Source of the DNA: Bacilli bacterium
Lineage (GTDB): Bacteria > Bacillota_I > Bacilli_A > JAJDGJ01
Assembly: GCA_031272545.1 (NCBI GenBank)
Contig: JAISTP010000024.1
Span: forward strand, 1 to 64,000
DNA length: 64,000 nucleotides
Direction: 5' to 3'
This document shows, in pieces, positions 37,783 to 58,430 of the stretch. Both the position numbers and the translations under genes were made by a program. How positions within the stretch are numbered: the stretch's first letter is position 1; each line of letters begins with the position of its first letter. The notes beneath the pieces are model-generated. The model worked only from the letters and a program-made list of their open reading frames with translations. It searched no databases and had not been told where the DNA came from.

Positions 37783-38322
37783 ATGCGTATAAAAATTATT
37801 TTAATAGGACTATTAATGATAACATCATTAATTCTCTATCAAATGTATTTTGTCTTTAATAATAAAATTGATGCCTTAGCTTTTAAAGAAAGCATACCTA
37901 ATCATCATAATTATTCATCAAATAACAATTATTTAAGTATTAATAATACTATCTCTATTAATAATAAAAAATATCAATTATCAAATCAATTTAATAATCA
38001 ATCATTGACTAATGGATTTGCGATTATGGAAATAAGTAAGCCTATTAATCAAAAAGGACAAACCATTATAGGAACTCATCGCGAAGCGTTTGGCAAAATA
38101 ATAAACAATATTAAATTAAATGATATTATCCTTATTAACTACAATACTAAAAACTATTATTATCAAGCTTATAATATAAAAATTATTAAAGATGATGAAT
38201 ACAATAAATTTTATCTAGAAGATACCAATAATAATATCATAACTTTATTTACTTGTTATCCAATTAATAGCAAAGAGAAGCCTACACAAAGATTAGTTAT
38301 TGAACTTAAACTAATTAAATAA
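37783..38322 (+). CDS. Sortase family transpeptidase
   Basis: Sortases cleave LPxTG-type signals and join surface proteins to peptidoglycan. The 179-residue protein has an N-terminal membrane helix (about 4-24), then the sortase barrel with the catalytic His in GQTIIGTHREAFG, the catalytic Cys in TLFTCYP and the Arg in TQRLVIEL. This order and spacing fit a class D/E-like housekeeping enzyme, though the class is not certain. Likely substrates in the window are the MPETG protein at 44.0-46.9 kb and the LPKTG protein at 63.4 kb. No substrate gene is adjacent, which suits a general-purpose sortase. Confidence 0.88.
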   Translation: MRIKIILIGLLMITSLILYQMYFVFNNKIDALAFKESIPNHHNYSSNNNYLSINNTISINNKKYQLSNQFNNQSLTNGFAIMEISKPINQKGQTIIGTHREAFGKIINNIKLNDIILINYNTKNYYYQAYNIKIIKDDEYNKFYLEDTNNNIITLFTCYPINSKEKPTQRLVIELKLIK

Positions 38323-44037: not shown

Positions 44038-46926
44038 CTAATCTTTTCTATTTAATACAGCATAGCTAGTTAAAGAAGTAAATACTATTAAAGCAAGCAT
44101 TAAACTGTAGTAAACATCACTAGAACCAGTTTCTGGCATATTAGCAGGATCACGATAATCTGGGATACCATCGCCATCACTATCAATTGGATTCATTGGA
44201 TCAGGTCCAACTTCATCAATATCAAGAATAGTATCATTATCACTATCAATATCACGATAATCTGGTACACCATCTCCATCAGTGTCTACTGGATTTGCAG
44301 GATTGCCACTACCATCACTATTTAAAGCTTCAACACTATCTGGAATAGAATCATTATCACTATCTAAATCTTGATAATCTGGAGTTCCATCTCCATCAGT
44401 GTCGACTGGATTATTTCCATCTTCACCTTTTTCTACACTATCTGGTATTCCATCATTATCACTATCTAAATCTTGATAATCTGGAGTTCCATCTCCATCA
44501 GTGTCGACTGGATTATTCCCATCTTCACCTTTTTCTACACTATCTGGGATTCCATCATTATCACTATCTAAATCTAAATAATCTGGAGTTCCATCTCCAT
44601 CAGTGTCGACTGGATTATTCCCATCTTCACCTTTTTCTACACTATCTGGTATTCCATCATTATCACTATCTAAATCTAAATAATCTGGAGTTCCATCTCC
44701 ATCACTGTCAACAGCTTCAGTATCTAAATCTGTATCTCCTGCTTCAACACTATCTGGTATTCCATCATTATCACTATCTAAATCACGATAATCTGGAGTT
44801 CCGTCTTCATCACTATCAACAGGAGGATTGTCCATTTGACCATCGCTATTACTATCTAATACATCTGGCATACCATCGTTATTAGCATCACCTGCTGTTG
44901 TATATGGATTATCAGGATCTTCTGCAGTTACTTGTGCTTCTTCAGTATCACTAATATTATCTCCATCAGTATCTAAATCTAAATAATCTGGGATTCCATC
45001 TCCATCAGTATCAACAGGAGTAGCAGGATCGCCACTACCATCACTATTTAAGGCTTCAACTTTATCTGGAATACCATCTCCATCACTATCTAAATCTAAC
45101 CAATCAGCAGTACCATCTCCATCAGTATCTCTGATATTATCTAAATCATCACCCATTTCAACAGCATCAGGAATTCCATCATGATCATGATCTGTTTCAA
45201 TGTCAGCTGGGATTTCTTCTTTAGTAGCATCTAACGCTGCTGCTGAAATACTACTATTCATCCATGATTCAATTCTTCTAACATTACCCCATGTCGCATT
45301 AGAATTATTTGCACCATCCACAACACACCAGCCATGAACACCTTGAGCACTATCTAAAGCAGTAGATGTACATAGACTTGCCATATCAGGCCAATTATTT
45401 GGATCACTACTATCAATACCACCAGTCATCGATAAAGGATAATTAATTAATGGAACTGGTGAAGTAAATAAAGTAAGTCCATTATCAGCACTTCCTTCAT
45501 ATGCAGTCCAAGACGAATCAAATAAATCACCACTATAACCACTATCATCCCAGTATAAAGTAGTATTACCAGCATCAGAACCATTTAATTGTTCTGCCAT
45601 TATTCCACCTAAAGTTTCAACATCTTCAAAAGTGAAATAAATCGAACTAATATTTTCTATATCTATTTTAGCTGTTATAGCTTGGGTAAATGGAACAACA
45701 TTACCTTCACCATCTAAACCATTCCAATAGCTTCCTTTAGGATTAGTTGCAGTTCCATTATCAGTTCCACCAGCCGCTGTTTCATTTAATGTTACATCAA
45801 CTGCATCATCAAAATTACCATTATTATTAGTATCAATCAATATTTTATAGGTACCAATGAAAGCTGGATCTAAATAATGTAAAATATTTCCTGCTCTAGG
45901 ATTAGCACCTTCAACTGATAAACCTGTTACTTTCGCAAGAGTATTACCACCTGAGTCAATAGGATCAGGAATTATATCTTTTGGTAAATCAGTTGCTGGA
46001 GCTTCAGTAAATATTTTATACAATTTACTAATATCAGTATTTACTGTTGGATTACCAGTTTTTTGCCAAACAGACTTATCAATTGGATCACCATTACCAT
46101 CTAATAAACCTAAAGAAGAAAAGGCAATAGTAGACTCAGCACCATTATATGTATTTAAAGAAACTTTATATTGATAACCTGCATCATTAGCTGTATATAA
46201 ATCAGTAGTAAAGTTATCTCCTTGTGAAAGAGTTAATTTTCTAGTCCATACACGTCCTGGAATATCACTACCATTATTTTGAGCATCAAATTTCCAATTA
46301 TAGAAATTTTGATAAGTATTTGGATTCATAACATTACCGCTACAATTGTAGCTACCATCAGTATTTTCTGCCCATGAAAAACTTCTAATACCTGTAGTTA
46401 ATCCTGCACGATTATGAATATAAACATTATAAGTACCATCACTTGTAACAGGTGCACTGGTCCAATCAAGGGCATCACTAGGATCAGCAAGGTTTAATCC
46501 ATCATTACCTGTTGTTTGATCCACAATATTACCATTACTATCTTTTAAAATAATATCTACATAATGAGTTCCATCATCTGTTGTATTTAATGTATCACCA
46601 TTTAAACAAGCATTTTGTGCAGCTGTAGCGTCAAAACCAGGCGCACTAGCATCAGTTGCACTAACATCAAATTGATTAGGATCAACACTAGTCATTGGAT
46701 AACCTAAATAAGTATCTCCAGCTTGATCTTGAAACCATGACTCTGCATGAAATGTTTCACCTGCTTTTAAATAAACTTGAAAACTTGTTGACCAATCAGA
46801 ATTAGCAGATGCAGCTGCAGTAATTCTTAAAGGCCCATTATTAATACTCGATTCAAAAGCTAGAACGTTATGCGTCCCAAATAGAGCAAAAAATGACAAC
46901 ATGAATATTGCTATTTTCTTTCTCAT
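44038..46926 (-). CDS. Sortase-anchored surface protein with calcium-binding Asp-rich repeats
   Basis: The 962-residue protein has a signal peptide ([19 protein letters not shown], cleavage likely after VLA near 24), a long ectodomain (about 25-570), then from about 575 to 920 more than ten repeats of the thrombospondin type 3 kind (DxDGDGxPDxxDxDSDNDGI). At the C-terminus the anchor MPETG (930-934) is followed by a membrane helix and the positive tail NRKD, a sortase signal with Met in place of Leu. The ectodomain resembles secreted proteins with GEVED-like or CshA-type annotations in general composition, but I cannot assign a domain. A GGAGGTAATAAT site precedes the ATG. It is probably an adhesin. 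Confidence 0.88.
44388..44706 (-). repeat. Near-identical 102-bp tandem repeats coding for 34-residue units
   Basis: The units ([18 protein letters not shown] followed by [16 protein letters not shown] or [16 protein letters not shown]) repeat with an exact period of 102 bp: the GTCGAC site recurs at 44401, 44503 and 44605. The units differ at only a few bases, so the copy number may vary among strains. Confidence 0.9.
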
Positions 46927-52926: not shown

Positions 52927-53001
52927 TGTAATACCTCCTTTATTTAATATAACAATTATTTATTTAATTTTCAATTGTAATACTCTAAAAAAACAATACT
53001 A

Positions 53002-53634
53002 TTATAATTGATAATGTACATCTGCTATTTCTAACATTCTTAAATCATGAGTTACTACTACAATACACTTATGATATTTATCTTTTACTAACTTTAATAA
53101 TTTCATAATTAGCATGGCATTATCACTATCTAAATTACCTGTTGGTTCATCACATAAAATAATTTTTGATGGTTTAATTAAAGCTCTAGCTAAGGCAATT
53201 CTTTGTTGTTCACCACCACTACATTCATAAATATATTGATCTAAACTAATATCTAAATTTACTACTTTAACAATATCGTTCATTATTTTTTCTTTTCTTT
53301 GTTTTGAATAATTAGTATATTTTAATGCTATTAATAGATTATCTCTAATTGTATAATCATCAATTAAAGCATAATTTTGAAAAAGATAAGAAATTTTGCT
53401 TCTAATAATTTTACTATTAAATAATGAGCCTATTTTCTTAGTTTTAATATTATCAATAATAACATCACCTGACTCACACTCATCAATTAAGCCAATAATA
53501 TTTAATAAAGTACTCTTCCCACATCCACTATTACCTGTTATCACAGTTATCTTATTATCTTTTATCTTTATATTTAAATTGTTATATATAGTCTTTTTAC
53601 CGTAGTGCTTACAAATATTTCTTAATTCAATCAT
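53002..53634 (-). CDS. ABC transporter ATP-binding protein of the bacteriocin locus
   Basis: The 210-residue protein has Walker A GNSGCGKST, the signature ECSGGEQQR, Walker B IILCDEPTGNLD and the H-loop VVTHD, typical of the MacB/LolD-like group. It starts one base after the permease stop codon, with its AAGGAGG site within the permease gene's end. It is the last gene of a Lcn972-like locus and should export or protect against the bacteriocin. Confidence 0.93.
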   Translation of the reverse strand: MIELRNICKHYGKKTIYNNLNIKIKDNKITVITGNSGCGKSTLLNIIGLIDECESGDVIIDNIKTKKIGSLFNSKIIRSKISYLFQNYALIDDYTIRDNLLIALKYTNYSKQRKEKIMNDIVKVVNLDISLDQYIYECSGGEQQRIALARALIKPSKIILCDEPTGNLDSDNAMLIMKLLKLVKDKYHKCIVVVTHDLRMLEIADVHYQL

Positions 53635-55569
53635 TTAATTTCCTCCTTTTAATATATTTATTAATTTATTAGTATAAGTCTTTTTAAAAAATATATAAGA
53701 TATCATTAAATAGAAACAATAATATATAATACTAAACATTAGTATATTACTAACTAATTGATATTGTTTAATAAGTAAACATATAATGTTAACTAAAACA
53801 ATTAATATCGTATCCAATGTTATATATTTAATAAAGATTTCTAATCTCGAACTACCATTTAAAAATTTAACTTTTAAAATATCTTGTTTTGTAAGGATAT
53901 AAAGCATTATTTTATTAAATATTAAGATAATACTAATTATTAATATAATAATAAAGGTTATGGTACTTACTATTAACAAATTTGTTTGTATTTTAATTTG
54001 ATAAGCTACTACTTCTTTAATTTGTTTAATTGTTTTATCATAATATTTATTAAGTTTTAATTCTTGTAATTTCTTAACTATATTTTGATATTTATCTTTA
54101 ATAATAAAATTAATATTATAGCTTTCTAATGCATTTAAATAAACTATCTTATCTTTATATAAGAACATTGTAGCATTCTTAATATAATTACCATTATTAA
54201 TGTTAACTCCAATATCATAAGTAAAAAATTCTTGATTATTTTTTAGGATAATAATATTCAAATTATTATTTTCTTTAATAAATGTTTTAATATAATTTTG
54301 ATATTTCTTTGGAATTAATAAATTATCTTTTGTATTATCAATTTTTACCAAATTATTATTTACATCATAGACTTTATTATTTTTTAAGTAATTCTCATTT
54401 ATTTCAGATACATTATAAGTTCCATCATCTAATATAGGTTTAGTAGTACCTGTTCTTTCAAAAATACTAAAATTAGCATAAATACTTCCTTTTTTATTAT
54501 AATATTCATAAAAAGTAAGTTCTTGTTTCATTAACTCATTATTATCTAATACTTTACAATCATCTTCATTTTGACAAGTTGCACCTTCAATATAGTAATA
54601 CTTACTTAATTCATGCCATTTTTTAGTACTATTTAGATAATAATCATAAATAGTTTTAAATTTATTAATAGCATAAGATCCCGTAATTAATATAATAATT
54701 ATAAGAATAATATTAATAACATTTGTAATATTATAAATTATTAAATAAATACCTTTATTTTTTAAAAGAGAAACTAAATTAATCTTAAATATTTTTTGAA
54801 CTACATAAAAACGTATTAATATAGATAATATAATTGATATGATTAATGTTACTAACAATAATATTAACAGCATTATATTAAAATAAAATCTAATAAAAAT
54901 TATATAGAGAACTATATAAGTTAAAAGACATAATAATATATCAATAAATATCTCTTTTTTATTAACTTCAATAAAACAATTACTTACATCATAACCATGT
55001 AATTTCCTAATTGATATCTTATTAGTATTTTTATACATAAAAATAGTTAGTACAAAATAATATATTAAAAATAATATTATAATAATTATAATTGGTTGAA
55101 TAATGCTTATATTTATTTTAACTATGTTATATGGTTCCATTTGATATTGAGAATCATTTTTTAATATATAAGCAAACTTTTTAATTTCTTTTTTATCACC
55201 AATAATCTTTAAATTAATAGCTGATTTAGTTTCTTTATATTTATCAAAATTATAATAATTTAAGCACTTTTTTGATAAAAGATTTTTACTACTATAATTA
55301 TTAATCTTTAATAAATTATTGTTATCTAAAATATAATATTGATAACACTTATCATTGTAATTCTCTATTACTAAAGATAAATTATATTTTTTAATTTTAT
55401 CACTTATGTCATTTTTAAAATTTATACCTTCATATTTTAATGAAAAAAGTTTATAACTTTCCTTTTCAAACATATATTTACTATCTTCATTAAGTTGATA
55501 AAAATAATAAGTAACAAAAAAGGAAAGAGTTATACTTATTACTAAAATAATATTAATAACTCTTTTCAT
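53635..55569 (-). CDS. Bacteriocin-associated ABC permease / immunity-type membrane protein (DUF1430-like)
   Basis: The 644-residue protein has one N-terminal helix (about 5-24), an extracellular segment, a block of helices at about 155-300 (four or five), a large ectodomain with a Cys pair (EGATCQNEDDCKV), and three more helices at about 525-640, an FtsX/MacB-like layout. It matches in size and context the putative immunity membrane proteins encoded next to lactococcin 972-type bacteriocins. No clear ribosome-binding site precedes its ATG, 3 bases after the bacteriocin stop codon, so translation is probably coupled. Confidence 0.8.
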   Translation of the reverse strand: MKRVINIILVISITLSFFVTYYFYQLNEDSKYMFEKESYKLFSLKYEGINFKNDISDKIKKYNLSLVIENYNDKCYQYYILDNNNLLKINNYSSKNLLSKKCLNYYNFDKYKETKSAINLKIIGDKKEIKKFAYILKNDSQYQMEPYNIVKINISIIQPIIIIIILFLIYYFVLTIFMYKNTNKISIRKLHGYDVSNCFIEVNKKEIFIDILLCLLTYIVLYIIFIRFYFNIMLLILLLVTLIISIILSILIRFYVVQKIFKINLVSLLKNKGIYLIIYNITNVINIILIIIILITGSYAINKFKTIYDYYLNSTKKWHELSKYYYIEGATCQNEDDCKVLDNNELMKQELTFYEYYNKKGSIYANFSIFERTGTTKPILDDGTYNVSEINENYLKNNKVYDVNNNLVKIDNTKDNLLIPKKYQNYIKTFIKENNNLNIIILKNNQEFFTYDIGVNINNGNYIKNATMFLYKDKIVYLNALESYNINFIIKDKYQNIVKKLQELKLNKYYDKTIKQIKEVVAYQIKIQTNLLIVSTITFIIILIISIILIFNKIMLYILTKQDILKVKFLNGSSRLEIFIKYITLDTILIVLVNIICLLIKQYQLVSNILMFSIIYYCFYLMISYIFFKKTYTNKLINILKGGN

Positions 55570-55572
55570 AAT

Positions 55573-55893
55573 TTAGACTTGGTACCAATAATATGAATTT
55601 CTAACTTTTAAACATGTAGCATATTTACTTGAAGTCCAAGCTATTTTGTTTTTATATGCATATTCTTTGTAATTAATATTAAAATTATCAGGACAATATC
55701 TTACTATTACACTAGCTCTATGATATTTTGTTTTATGATCAACTTGAGAATATTGTCGATAATGAGTAAATCCTAAATATTGAACTCCATAATCAAAATA
55801 TCCTTTATTGTGATCAATTTTATACCCAGTCGCACTAATAATACTAGTTGAAATAAAAGCAACTAATACTAAACTAACTATTTTCTTTTTCAT
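55573..55893 (-). CDS. Lactococcin 972-like bacteriocin precursor
   Basis: The 106-residue protein has a classical signal peptide (MKKKIVSLVLVAFISTSIIS, cleavage near residue 22-24) and a mature part of about 83 residues with the family pattern: Y-F-D-Y-G-V near the N-terminus, an S-Q-V-D-H-K-T-K-Y-H-R-A-S-V segment, and an aromatic C-terminus (SYYWYQV). Lcn972 blocks septum formation by binding lipid II. Two cysteines (in RYCPD and YATCLK) may form a disulfide, which the founding member lacks. The downstream permease and ATPase genes are those expected for this class. The sequence is divergent, so the call rests on pattern and locus together. Confidence 0.75.
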   Translation of the reverse strand: MKKKIVSLVLVAFISTSIISATGYKIDHNKGYFDYGVQYLGFTHYRQYSQVDHKTKYHRASVIVRYCPDNFNINYKEYAYKNKIAWTSSKYATCLKVRNSYYWYQV

Positions 55894-55928
55894 TTTATTT
55901 GGCTCCTTTTAAATTTTTTATTTATTTT

Positions 55929-56060
55929 TTAAAAAGTTAAGGAGTTCCAATGATTTAATTTATATAAGAATAATAAATAATTAAAAAGCAAAACAATTAA
56001 TGGATAAATAGTTTTACTTTTTTTAATTATTCCGTTTATATTTTCTACTAAAATTCCCAC
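55929..56060 (-). CDS. Small hydrophobic peptide (43 residues) leading the bacteriocin operon
   Basis: The reading frame starts with GTG at 56060, with AAAGGAG 10 bases upstream, and ends TAA at 55929. The peptide has a basic segment (IIKKSK) followed by one membrane helix (YPLIVLLFNYLLFLY) and a short polar tail. It is 35 bases before the bacteriocin gene and follows an extended -10 promoter, so it is the first gene of the operon. It may be an immunity or accessory peptide; I cannot assign it to a family. Confidence 0.55.
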   Translation of the reverse strand: MGILVENINGIIKKSKTIYPLIVLLFNYLLFLYKLNHWNSLTF

Positions 56061-56087
56061 AATAAATTATCTCCTTTATATTTTTAA

Positions 56088-56096
56088 ATTATATCA
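56088..56096 (-). promoter_or_regulatory. Extended -10 promoter of the bacteriocin operon
   Basis: TGATATAAT on the minus strand (TG-N-TATAAT) lies 28 bases before the start of the 43-residue peptide. No good -35 is seen. Confidence 0.5.
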
Positions 56097-56175
56097 TTTA
56101 ACATTAATCTACCTATGTATATAATAAGTATTTATAATAGTTGATAATTATTTATATTATTATTTATACTGAAAT

Positions 56176-56206
56176 AAAATAAAAAGAGTTATTCAGTATA
56201 ACTCTT
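56176..56206 (-). terminator. Terminator overlapping the end of the Mrp gene
   Basis: A 9-bp stem (AAGAGTTAT / ATAACTCTT, 56184-56206) overlaps the stop codon and is followed on the minus strand by a T-rich run. Confidence 0.7.
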
Positions 56207-57179: not shown

Positions 57180-58430
57180 CTATCTTAATCCTAATTTTGC
57201 AGCACAAGCAGGCCATTGCCCCCAACCTGATGCCGCATGAGTTTGAAGCCATGTAGCAGCTTTAATTTGATCTTCTCTACTAGCTAAATAAGCATATGGA
57301 GCAGTAACTCCTACATGAGCAGCCGCATTATTCCAAGTACTAGCTGTAAATTGTAATCCGCCATAAAAACCATTACCAGTATTAGCTGCCCAATTACCAC
57401 CTGATTCACATTGAGCTAATTTATCCCATACGCTACTACTAGTAGTAACAACGTTAGCACCATATTCAATTATTTTATCTTTTTTCTTTGTAATAACTTT
57501 AATTACTTTAGAGGTTGTTTTTTGTTTTTTGCCATCTAGATAAACAGTAGTATATTGCACTTCTTGTTTACCTTCAACTCCTTTTTGAGCAACTTTAGTT
57601 TGTCCACTTTCTAGTTTTTTATTTTCTTTATAAACAGTTTTATAAGCGACTGTTTCTGTTTTAGTAGTTACTTTTGTAACCTTCTCATAAAAAACAAAAG
57701 ATTTTATCAGAGTTAAATCTACTTTATCTAAATCTTTATCATAATCTTTAACTAAATAAGTTACTCCTTTTTTATCTTTTAAATTTTTTTCACTTAATTC
57801 ACTTACTAAATCTTTTAAGTTAGATTTATATGTTGTAATTGTTTGTTTCTTACCATTTAAAGTTATTTCTAATTGTTTTTCAGTATCAAAAGTACAAGTT
57901 AGGCCTGTTTTAACAATACCTTTACCATTACATGCAAATTCATAATCACTAACTTTCTTTTGTAAAGCAAATTTTTGAATTAAACGATCTTGTGAAAATT
58001 GAATTGTTGTTACCTTTTCAGGTTTATTATTATAGATAATAGTTACAACTTTTTTCTGAGTTAAATAAACCATAAAAAACAAAGTAAAGCACATTACTAA
58101 AGCTAAAGCCATTTTAATTATCTTACTTTTAAATCGAGCTCTTCTTTCTTTATTTAAATAACTAAGTTTATTTAAAGCATCTGAATAATTCTTTTTAAAT
58201 CCTTGATATTTTTCTAGACTAATTATTTTATCAAGTTTATTAGAAATACCATTAAAAAAATAAACAAAACCTCTAGCTCCATTATTTTGAGCTTCTTTTA
58301 TTAAATTACTTCTTATTTTTTGTTTATATGAATATTTTATATTTTTATTATTAAGCTTTTTAACTTTACTTAAAGATAATCTTTTATCAAAAGTAATTAT
58401 TTCAAAATCATTATTAATCTTAAAAAGCAT
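57180..58430 (-). CDS. RpfB-like resuscitation-promoting factor (DUF348-G5-Rpf)
   Basis: The 416-residue protein has a cytoplasmic N-terminus of about 100 residues, a membrane helix (about 105-125), DUF348-like ubiquitin-type repeats (about 128-245), a G5 domain (about 247-322) and a C-terminal Rpf domain (334-416). The last contains [13 protein letters not shown] with the catalytic Glu E342, the Cys pair C341/C409, [14 protein letters not shown] and SGWGQWPAC. This order is that of actinobacterial RpfB, a lysozyme-like muralytic enzyme that wakes dormant cells. Rpf domains are rare in low-GC lineages, where the equivalents are the Sps/YabE 3D proteins, and the Rpf-coding part looks richer in G and C than its neighbours. 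Confidence 0.92.

Follow-up and report, generated by a model that had tools for sequence, protein, structure and literature searches.

Lactococcin 972 (Lcn972) inhibits septum formation. It binds lipid II, and orf2-orf3 have been called its immunity genes (PMC4055356). Streptococcin B, which belongs to the same kind, is active, and its secretion is independent of ComAB and BlpAB (PMC11796350). BceAB transporters act by target protection (PMC7038271). In this study we analyzed a stretch of 64,000 nucleotides from a Bacilli bacterium, hereafter the window, and describe in it a locus that is a divergent, otherwise ordinary and intact member of this known bacteriocin kind in an uncultured Bacilli lineage.

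The locus consists of three contiguous open reading frames on the minus strand, in the order peptide, permease and ATPase; 3 bases separate the first two and none the second pair, and all frames are intact (Table 1). The bacteriocin gene is preceded by a good ribosome-binding site. The coordinates and gaps reported in the first-pass annotation of this DNA were reproduced exactly. Its assignment of the locus to the Lcn972 type holds, insofar as gene order and the best NCBIfam match of all three proteins agree, and so does its claim of divergence, since none of the three proteins reaches its curated cut-off and neither the peptide nor the permease is recognized by Pfam. The three genes would presumably be transcribed as one operon. 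The first-pass annotation had placed them under one extended -10 promoter, and the element TGATATAAT is indeed present at 56088-56096, but promoter-like sites were not in excess over chance (46 in the region, 45.8 expected from shuffled sequence). Because such sites are as common in shuffles, the element argues only weakly for a promoter. Between TGATATAAT and the bacteriocin gene sits a 43-aa ORF, which the first-pass annotation did not list; it found no match in an NCBIfam search and could be a leader, a small membrane peptide or a chance frame.

Table 1. Features of the locus and its surroundings, in window coordinates.
Feature	Position	Strand	Basis
Lcn972-like bacteriocin precursor gene, 106 aa	55573..55893	-	ORF, TIGR01653 match
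Bacteriocin-associated integral membrane protein (putative immunity permease), 644 aa	53635..55569	-	ORF, TIGR01654 match, hydropathy
ABC ATPase, Lcn972-locus type, 210 aa	53002..53634	-	ORF, TIGR03608 match, motifs
Ribosome-binding site AAAGGAG of the bacteriocin gene	55903..55909	-	Sequence
Candidate extended -10 element TGATATAAT of the operon	56088..56096	-	Sequence
43-aa ORF, GTG start, AAAGGAG upstream, one hydrophobic span	55929..56060	-	ORF, hydropathy
rbr-mrp interval with the inserted locus, 3,262 bp	52927..56188	.	Comparison with G001, G002 and G003

The best NCBIfam match of the peptide is TIGR01653 (20.5 bits, E 4.4e-4), below the curated cut-off of 32.1 bits, and a Pfam search returned no match at E<=10, PF09683 (cut-off 22 bits) included. 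It is nevertheless the only TIGR01653 match in its whole genome. When 339 window frames were scored with a profile of 16 relatives from which the peptide itself had been left out, it came first, and none of 20,000 shuffled versions of its mature part equalled the score of the real one. Profile-profile comparison gave a probability of 95.7 (hhalign, E 9e-9) when the signal peptide was included and a seven-member family profile was used, and 12.9 (E 0.0022) for mature parts only and a 16-member profile. As this result varies with the input, the peptide alone makes a weak case, and it is the gene neighbourhood that turns the weak case into a strong one. In the profile searches proposed by the first-pass annotation, the Lcn972-locus families thus were the best matches of both peptide and permease, but the scores remained under the curated cut-offs.

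The precursor carries an MKKK n-region, a hydrophobic core and the sequence ATG|YK, from which we predict, by eye, a Sec signal of about residues 1-23. The same visual inspection of this short Sec-type precursor found no double-glycine leader. The predicted mature part of about 83 aa (about Y24-V106) has a calculated charge of about +8 and a pI of 9.5. It retains all five positions at which 17 aligned sequences do not vary (G, G, S, H and H), which belong to the G..YG and S..H....H pattern. In terms of the fuller signature, GG.W.YG and S-N-Y..H....H, the G, YG, S, H and H are kept while W is replaced by F and NY by QV; the nearly invariant W (GGTW) and Y (SNY) of the family are consequently F and V here, and target binding could therefore differ. 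The alignment also reveals a seven-residue insertion relative to the relatives. The two cysteines (C67 and C94), for which the first-pass annotation had suggested a possible disulfide, are not a special feature, given that 10 of the 16 retrieved relatives likewise have exactly two, at several different positions, and a disulfide, plausible as it is in the window peptide, is therefore no defining novelty.

Comparison with the Lcn972 structure, also proposed at first pass, gave a clear answer for the relative from the same genus only. With an alignment of 16 sequences the G001 peptide, used as control, was modelled at pLDDT 95, and its best PDB match in Foldseek was Lcn972 itself (2LGN, TM 0.68/0.77); next came formosin D (9HKJ), which its depositors assigned to the lactococcin 972 family of bacteriocins. 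The window peptide, modelled from 17 sequences, reached pLDDT 53 without a significant PDB match, too weak to judge its fold. In this weak model the N-terminal strands (2-6, 9-19, 22-30 and 35-43) follow the same order as the four of the control (2-4, 7-16, 20-28 and 34-40). A PDB sequence search with the window peptide gave chance matches only.

The two transporter genes carry the assignment further. TIGR03608, named as a putative bacteriocin export ABC transporter, is the best of 204 families for the ATPase (E 3e-69, below the curated cut-off; the next, FtsE, 2e-46), and the Walker A, signature, Walker B, Q-loop and H-loop motifs are intact. The best NCBIfam match of the permease, TIGR01654 (E 2.8e-16), is like that of the ATPase far beyond chance, but below the curated cut-off; a Pfam search with the permease gave no match, PF02687 included. 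Its hydropathy profile shows about eight hydrophobic spans and two extracytoplasmic domains, which fits two modules in one chain, an FtsX/MacB-type module being a transmembrane span, an extracytoplasmic domain and three further spans. The two halves align to each other (hhalign E 4.5e-6) with a K-L-x-G-Y-S stretch common to both, and one of eight permease family members matches PF02687 (FtsX) at 3.5e-5. From sequence, then, the bacteriocin-associated permease family looks like a doubled FtsX-type module. BceAB transporters are also of the FtsX type. The first-pass annotation had treated a grouping with MacB/FtsX exporters as a refutation of the Lcn972 assignment; since the family itself looks like a doubled FtsX, the two are at the level of architecture not alternatives.

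Among 395 sampled Bacilli genomes the permease family was matched in 34 and the peptide family in 7, which makes the two transporter genes better search baits than the peptide; cut-offs were passed in 1 of the 34 permease-family (TIGR01654) genomes and in 3 of the 7 peptide-family genomes. The same-genus genome G001 (MAG Pq454_bin41; L022/L050) holds the same three genes in the same order and of similar sizes (100, 656 and 209 aa), at a different chromosomal site. Its peptide is canonical (GGGTWEYG, SNYYHQSKTHGAS) and passes both the TIGR01653 and the PF09683 cut-off, whereas that of the window does not, and the two loci share only about 24% identity in the peptides and 20% in the permeases. 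The closest permease found, at 27-28% identity, is that of locus L003 in genome G015, from a different family of the same class; its locus has the same order, and its shorter peptide (87 aa) is likewise under the TIGR01653 cut-off (22.6 bits, E 9.8e-5). Two genomes from another small-genome family of the class contain several Lcn972 peptides. A scan of genome contigs with six strict patterns for near relatives of the window peptide yielded 101 stretches, none of them confirmed, an empty result that shows the absence of near relatives only. In viral contigs the GGTW.YG pattern gave 12 matches that on inspection included no bacteriocin, and searches of plasmids and viral contigs found no such permease. 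The suggestion of an undescribed branch was consequently not substantiated: no close peptide relatives were found in the genome contigs and the permease tree, with its long branches, mostly lacks resolution, so the locus is to be regarded as one divergent member and not as a shown clade.

Some of the other loci retrieved deserve mention in their own right. In L009, L010 and L026 the same kind of permease and ATPase lies beside small secreted peptides (about 140, 146 and 115 aa) that match neither the Lcn972 nor the mediterrocin profile, and these are possibly undescribed bacteriocin families. L030 and L034, from two genomes, combine this permease family with one and the same mediterrocin-type peptide (NF052268, E 4e-36). 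The genes stand in a different order, permease-ATPase-peptide, in an uncultured 'Mycoplasmatales' MAG (L044 / L064), where transposase-like ORFs lie immediately outside the locus.

Rubrerythrin and mrp are separated by 3,262 bp in the window, as compared with 86 bp in G001 and 91 bp in G003; in G002 the spacing is 466 bp, with one other small ORF inside. Because this interval is short in the relatives and does not contain the locus, the locus is most simply accessory DNA inserted between rubrerythrin and mrp in this lineage. Neither a convincing target-site duplication nor terminal repeats were found at the ends of the insert, where the sequence is AT-rich, and no transposase was seen at the locus. 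The third-position GC of the three genes (0.096-0.123) falls within that of the other window genes (0.09-0.16), and the low total GC of the permease reflects its amino acid composition. Recent transfer is thus not supported by base composition, and the insertion need not be recent.

Elsewhere in the window, a protein with G5 and transglycosylase-like (PF06737, Rpf-type) domains adjoins mrp (57180-58430) and is conserved in G001-G003. The gene at 44038-46926 encodes a surface protein of 962 aa that contains thrombospondin type 3-like repeats and ends in a sorting-type MPETG motif; a sortase gene is present at 37783-38322. The putative lipoprotein encoded at 1093-2151 (352 aa) has two repeats that resemble each other, and Pfam gave no match for it.

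We consider it likely that the three genes make up a minimal lactococcin 972-type operon for a class II bacteriocin, in which the ABC pair gives immunity. According to this hypothesis the 106-aa precursor would leave the cell through the general Sec pathway and lose its signal; the product, cationic, about 83 residues long and probably rich in beta structure, would by analogy act as a putative lipid II- or septum-directed bacteriocin. We envisage the permease and the ATPase as a single ABC complex with a doubled FtsX scaffold that would protect the producer. Instead of exporting the peptide, this complex would most plausibly release it from its target in the way BceAB-type transporters work. 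Sec export, a wall target and immunity through the ABC pair are inferred from the literature on Lcn972, streptococcin B and BceAB. Penicillin-binding transpeptidases occur in all four of the genomes G000, G001, G004 and G016, which rules out a wall-less producer and implies that producers carry the wall target and need immunity.

The strongest competitor, though in our judgement an unlikely one, is that the peptide is still a wall-active bacteriocin whose target has changed, such that it no longer binds lipid II in the manner of Lcn972. The replaced signature residues (W by F, Y by V), the seven-residue insertion and the strongly basic mature part would fit a change of this type, as would the low model confidence obtained although the alignment folds the G001 relative well, and the lack of close peptide relatives in our searches. 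Yet the permease and ATPase beside it belong to the type seen at canonical loci, the S..H....H core is kept, as are the first four strands in the pLDDT 53 model, and mediterrocin is active and shares the predicted fold although its identity to Lcn972 is 18% (PMC12345188). Rather improbable in our view is also a reading in which the peptide belongs to a distinct lineage derived from Lcn972 whose wall target has changed; carried as a minimal cassette, this lineage would have entered a small-genome uncultured Bacilli order at different sites and would go undetected by standard bacteriocin profiles. That the ABC pair exports the peptide instead of conferring immunity could be read from the name of TIGR03608, but we give this little credence in view of the Sec-type signal, the absence of a double-glycine leader, the secretion of streptococcin B without ComAB or BlpAB (PMC11796350) and the target protection described for BceAB-type transporters (PMC7038271). 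Nothing specific favors a self-directed wall modulator or signal beyond the fact that the Lcn972 name rests on homology, and we consider such a role very unlikely. The distribution is accessory, in 2 of the 4 genomes from the order and at a different site in each, unlike that of a housekeeping wall regulator, and characterized relatives inhibit other bacteria (PMC11796350, PMC12345188).

If the locus is a minimal Lcn972-type operon with immunity, as we favor, it extends the lipid II-directed bacteriocin kind to a small-genome uncultured Bacilli order. Such loci can escape the peptide profile yet be caught by the ATPase and the permease. Moreover, the doubled FtsX architecture makes the target-protection model of immunity directly testable.

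Three described systems can be set beside the locus. Streptococcin B (scbABC, Streptococcus pneumoniae) is likewise a three-gene operon of the Lcn972 type, with demonstrated inhibition of relatives (PMC11796350); it is regulated by competence (ComE, ScbR), whereas no such regulator is adjacent to the window locus. Mediterrocin (Mediterraneibacter gnavus, NF052268) similarly comes from gut Bacillota, with a DUF1430 permease, an ABC ATPase and a divergent peptide for which an Lcn972-like fold is predicted (PMC12345188), but its cluster has extra genes and the window peptide gave no match to NF052268 at E<=10. The Lcn972 locus of Lactococcus lactis (lcn972-orf2-orf3; PDB 2LGN) differs in that it is carried on the plasmid pBL1 and not on the chromosome, and its peptide has a mature part of 66 residues, without the insertion, has no cysteines where the window peptide has two, and is unlike the window peptide in its signature W and Y and in relation to the TIGR01653 cut-off. 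The two loci are nevertheless alike in gene order, in a small peptide of the Sec type, in the families of permease and ATPase, and in the G..YG and S..H....H positions.
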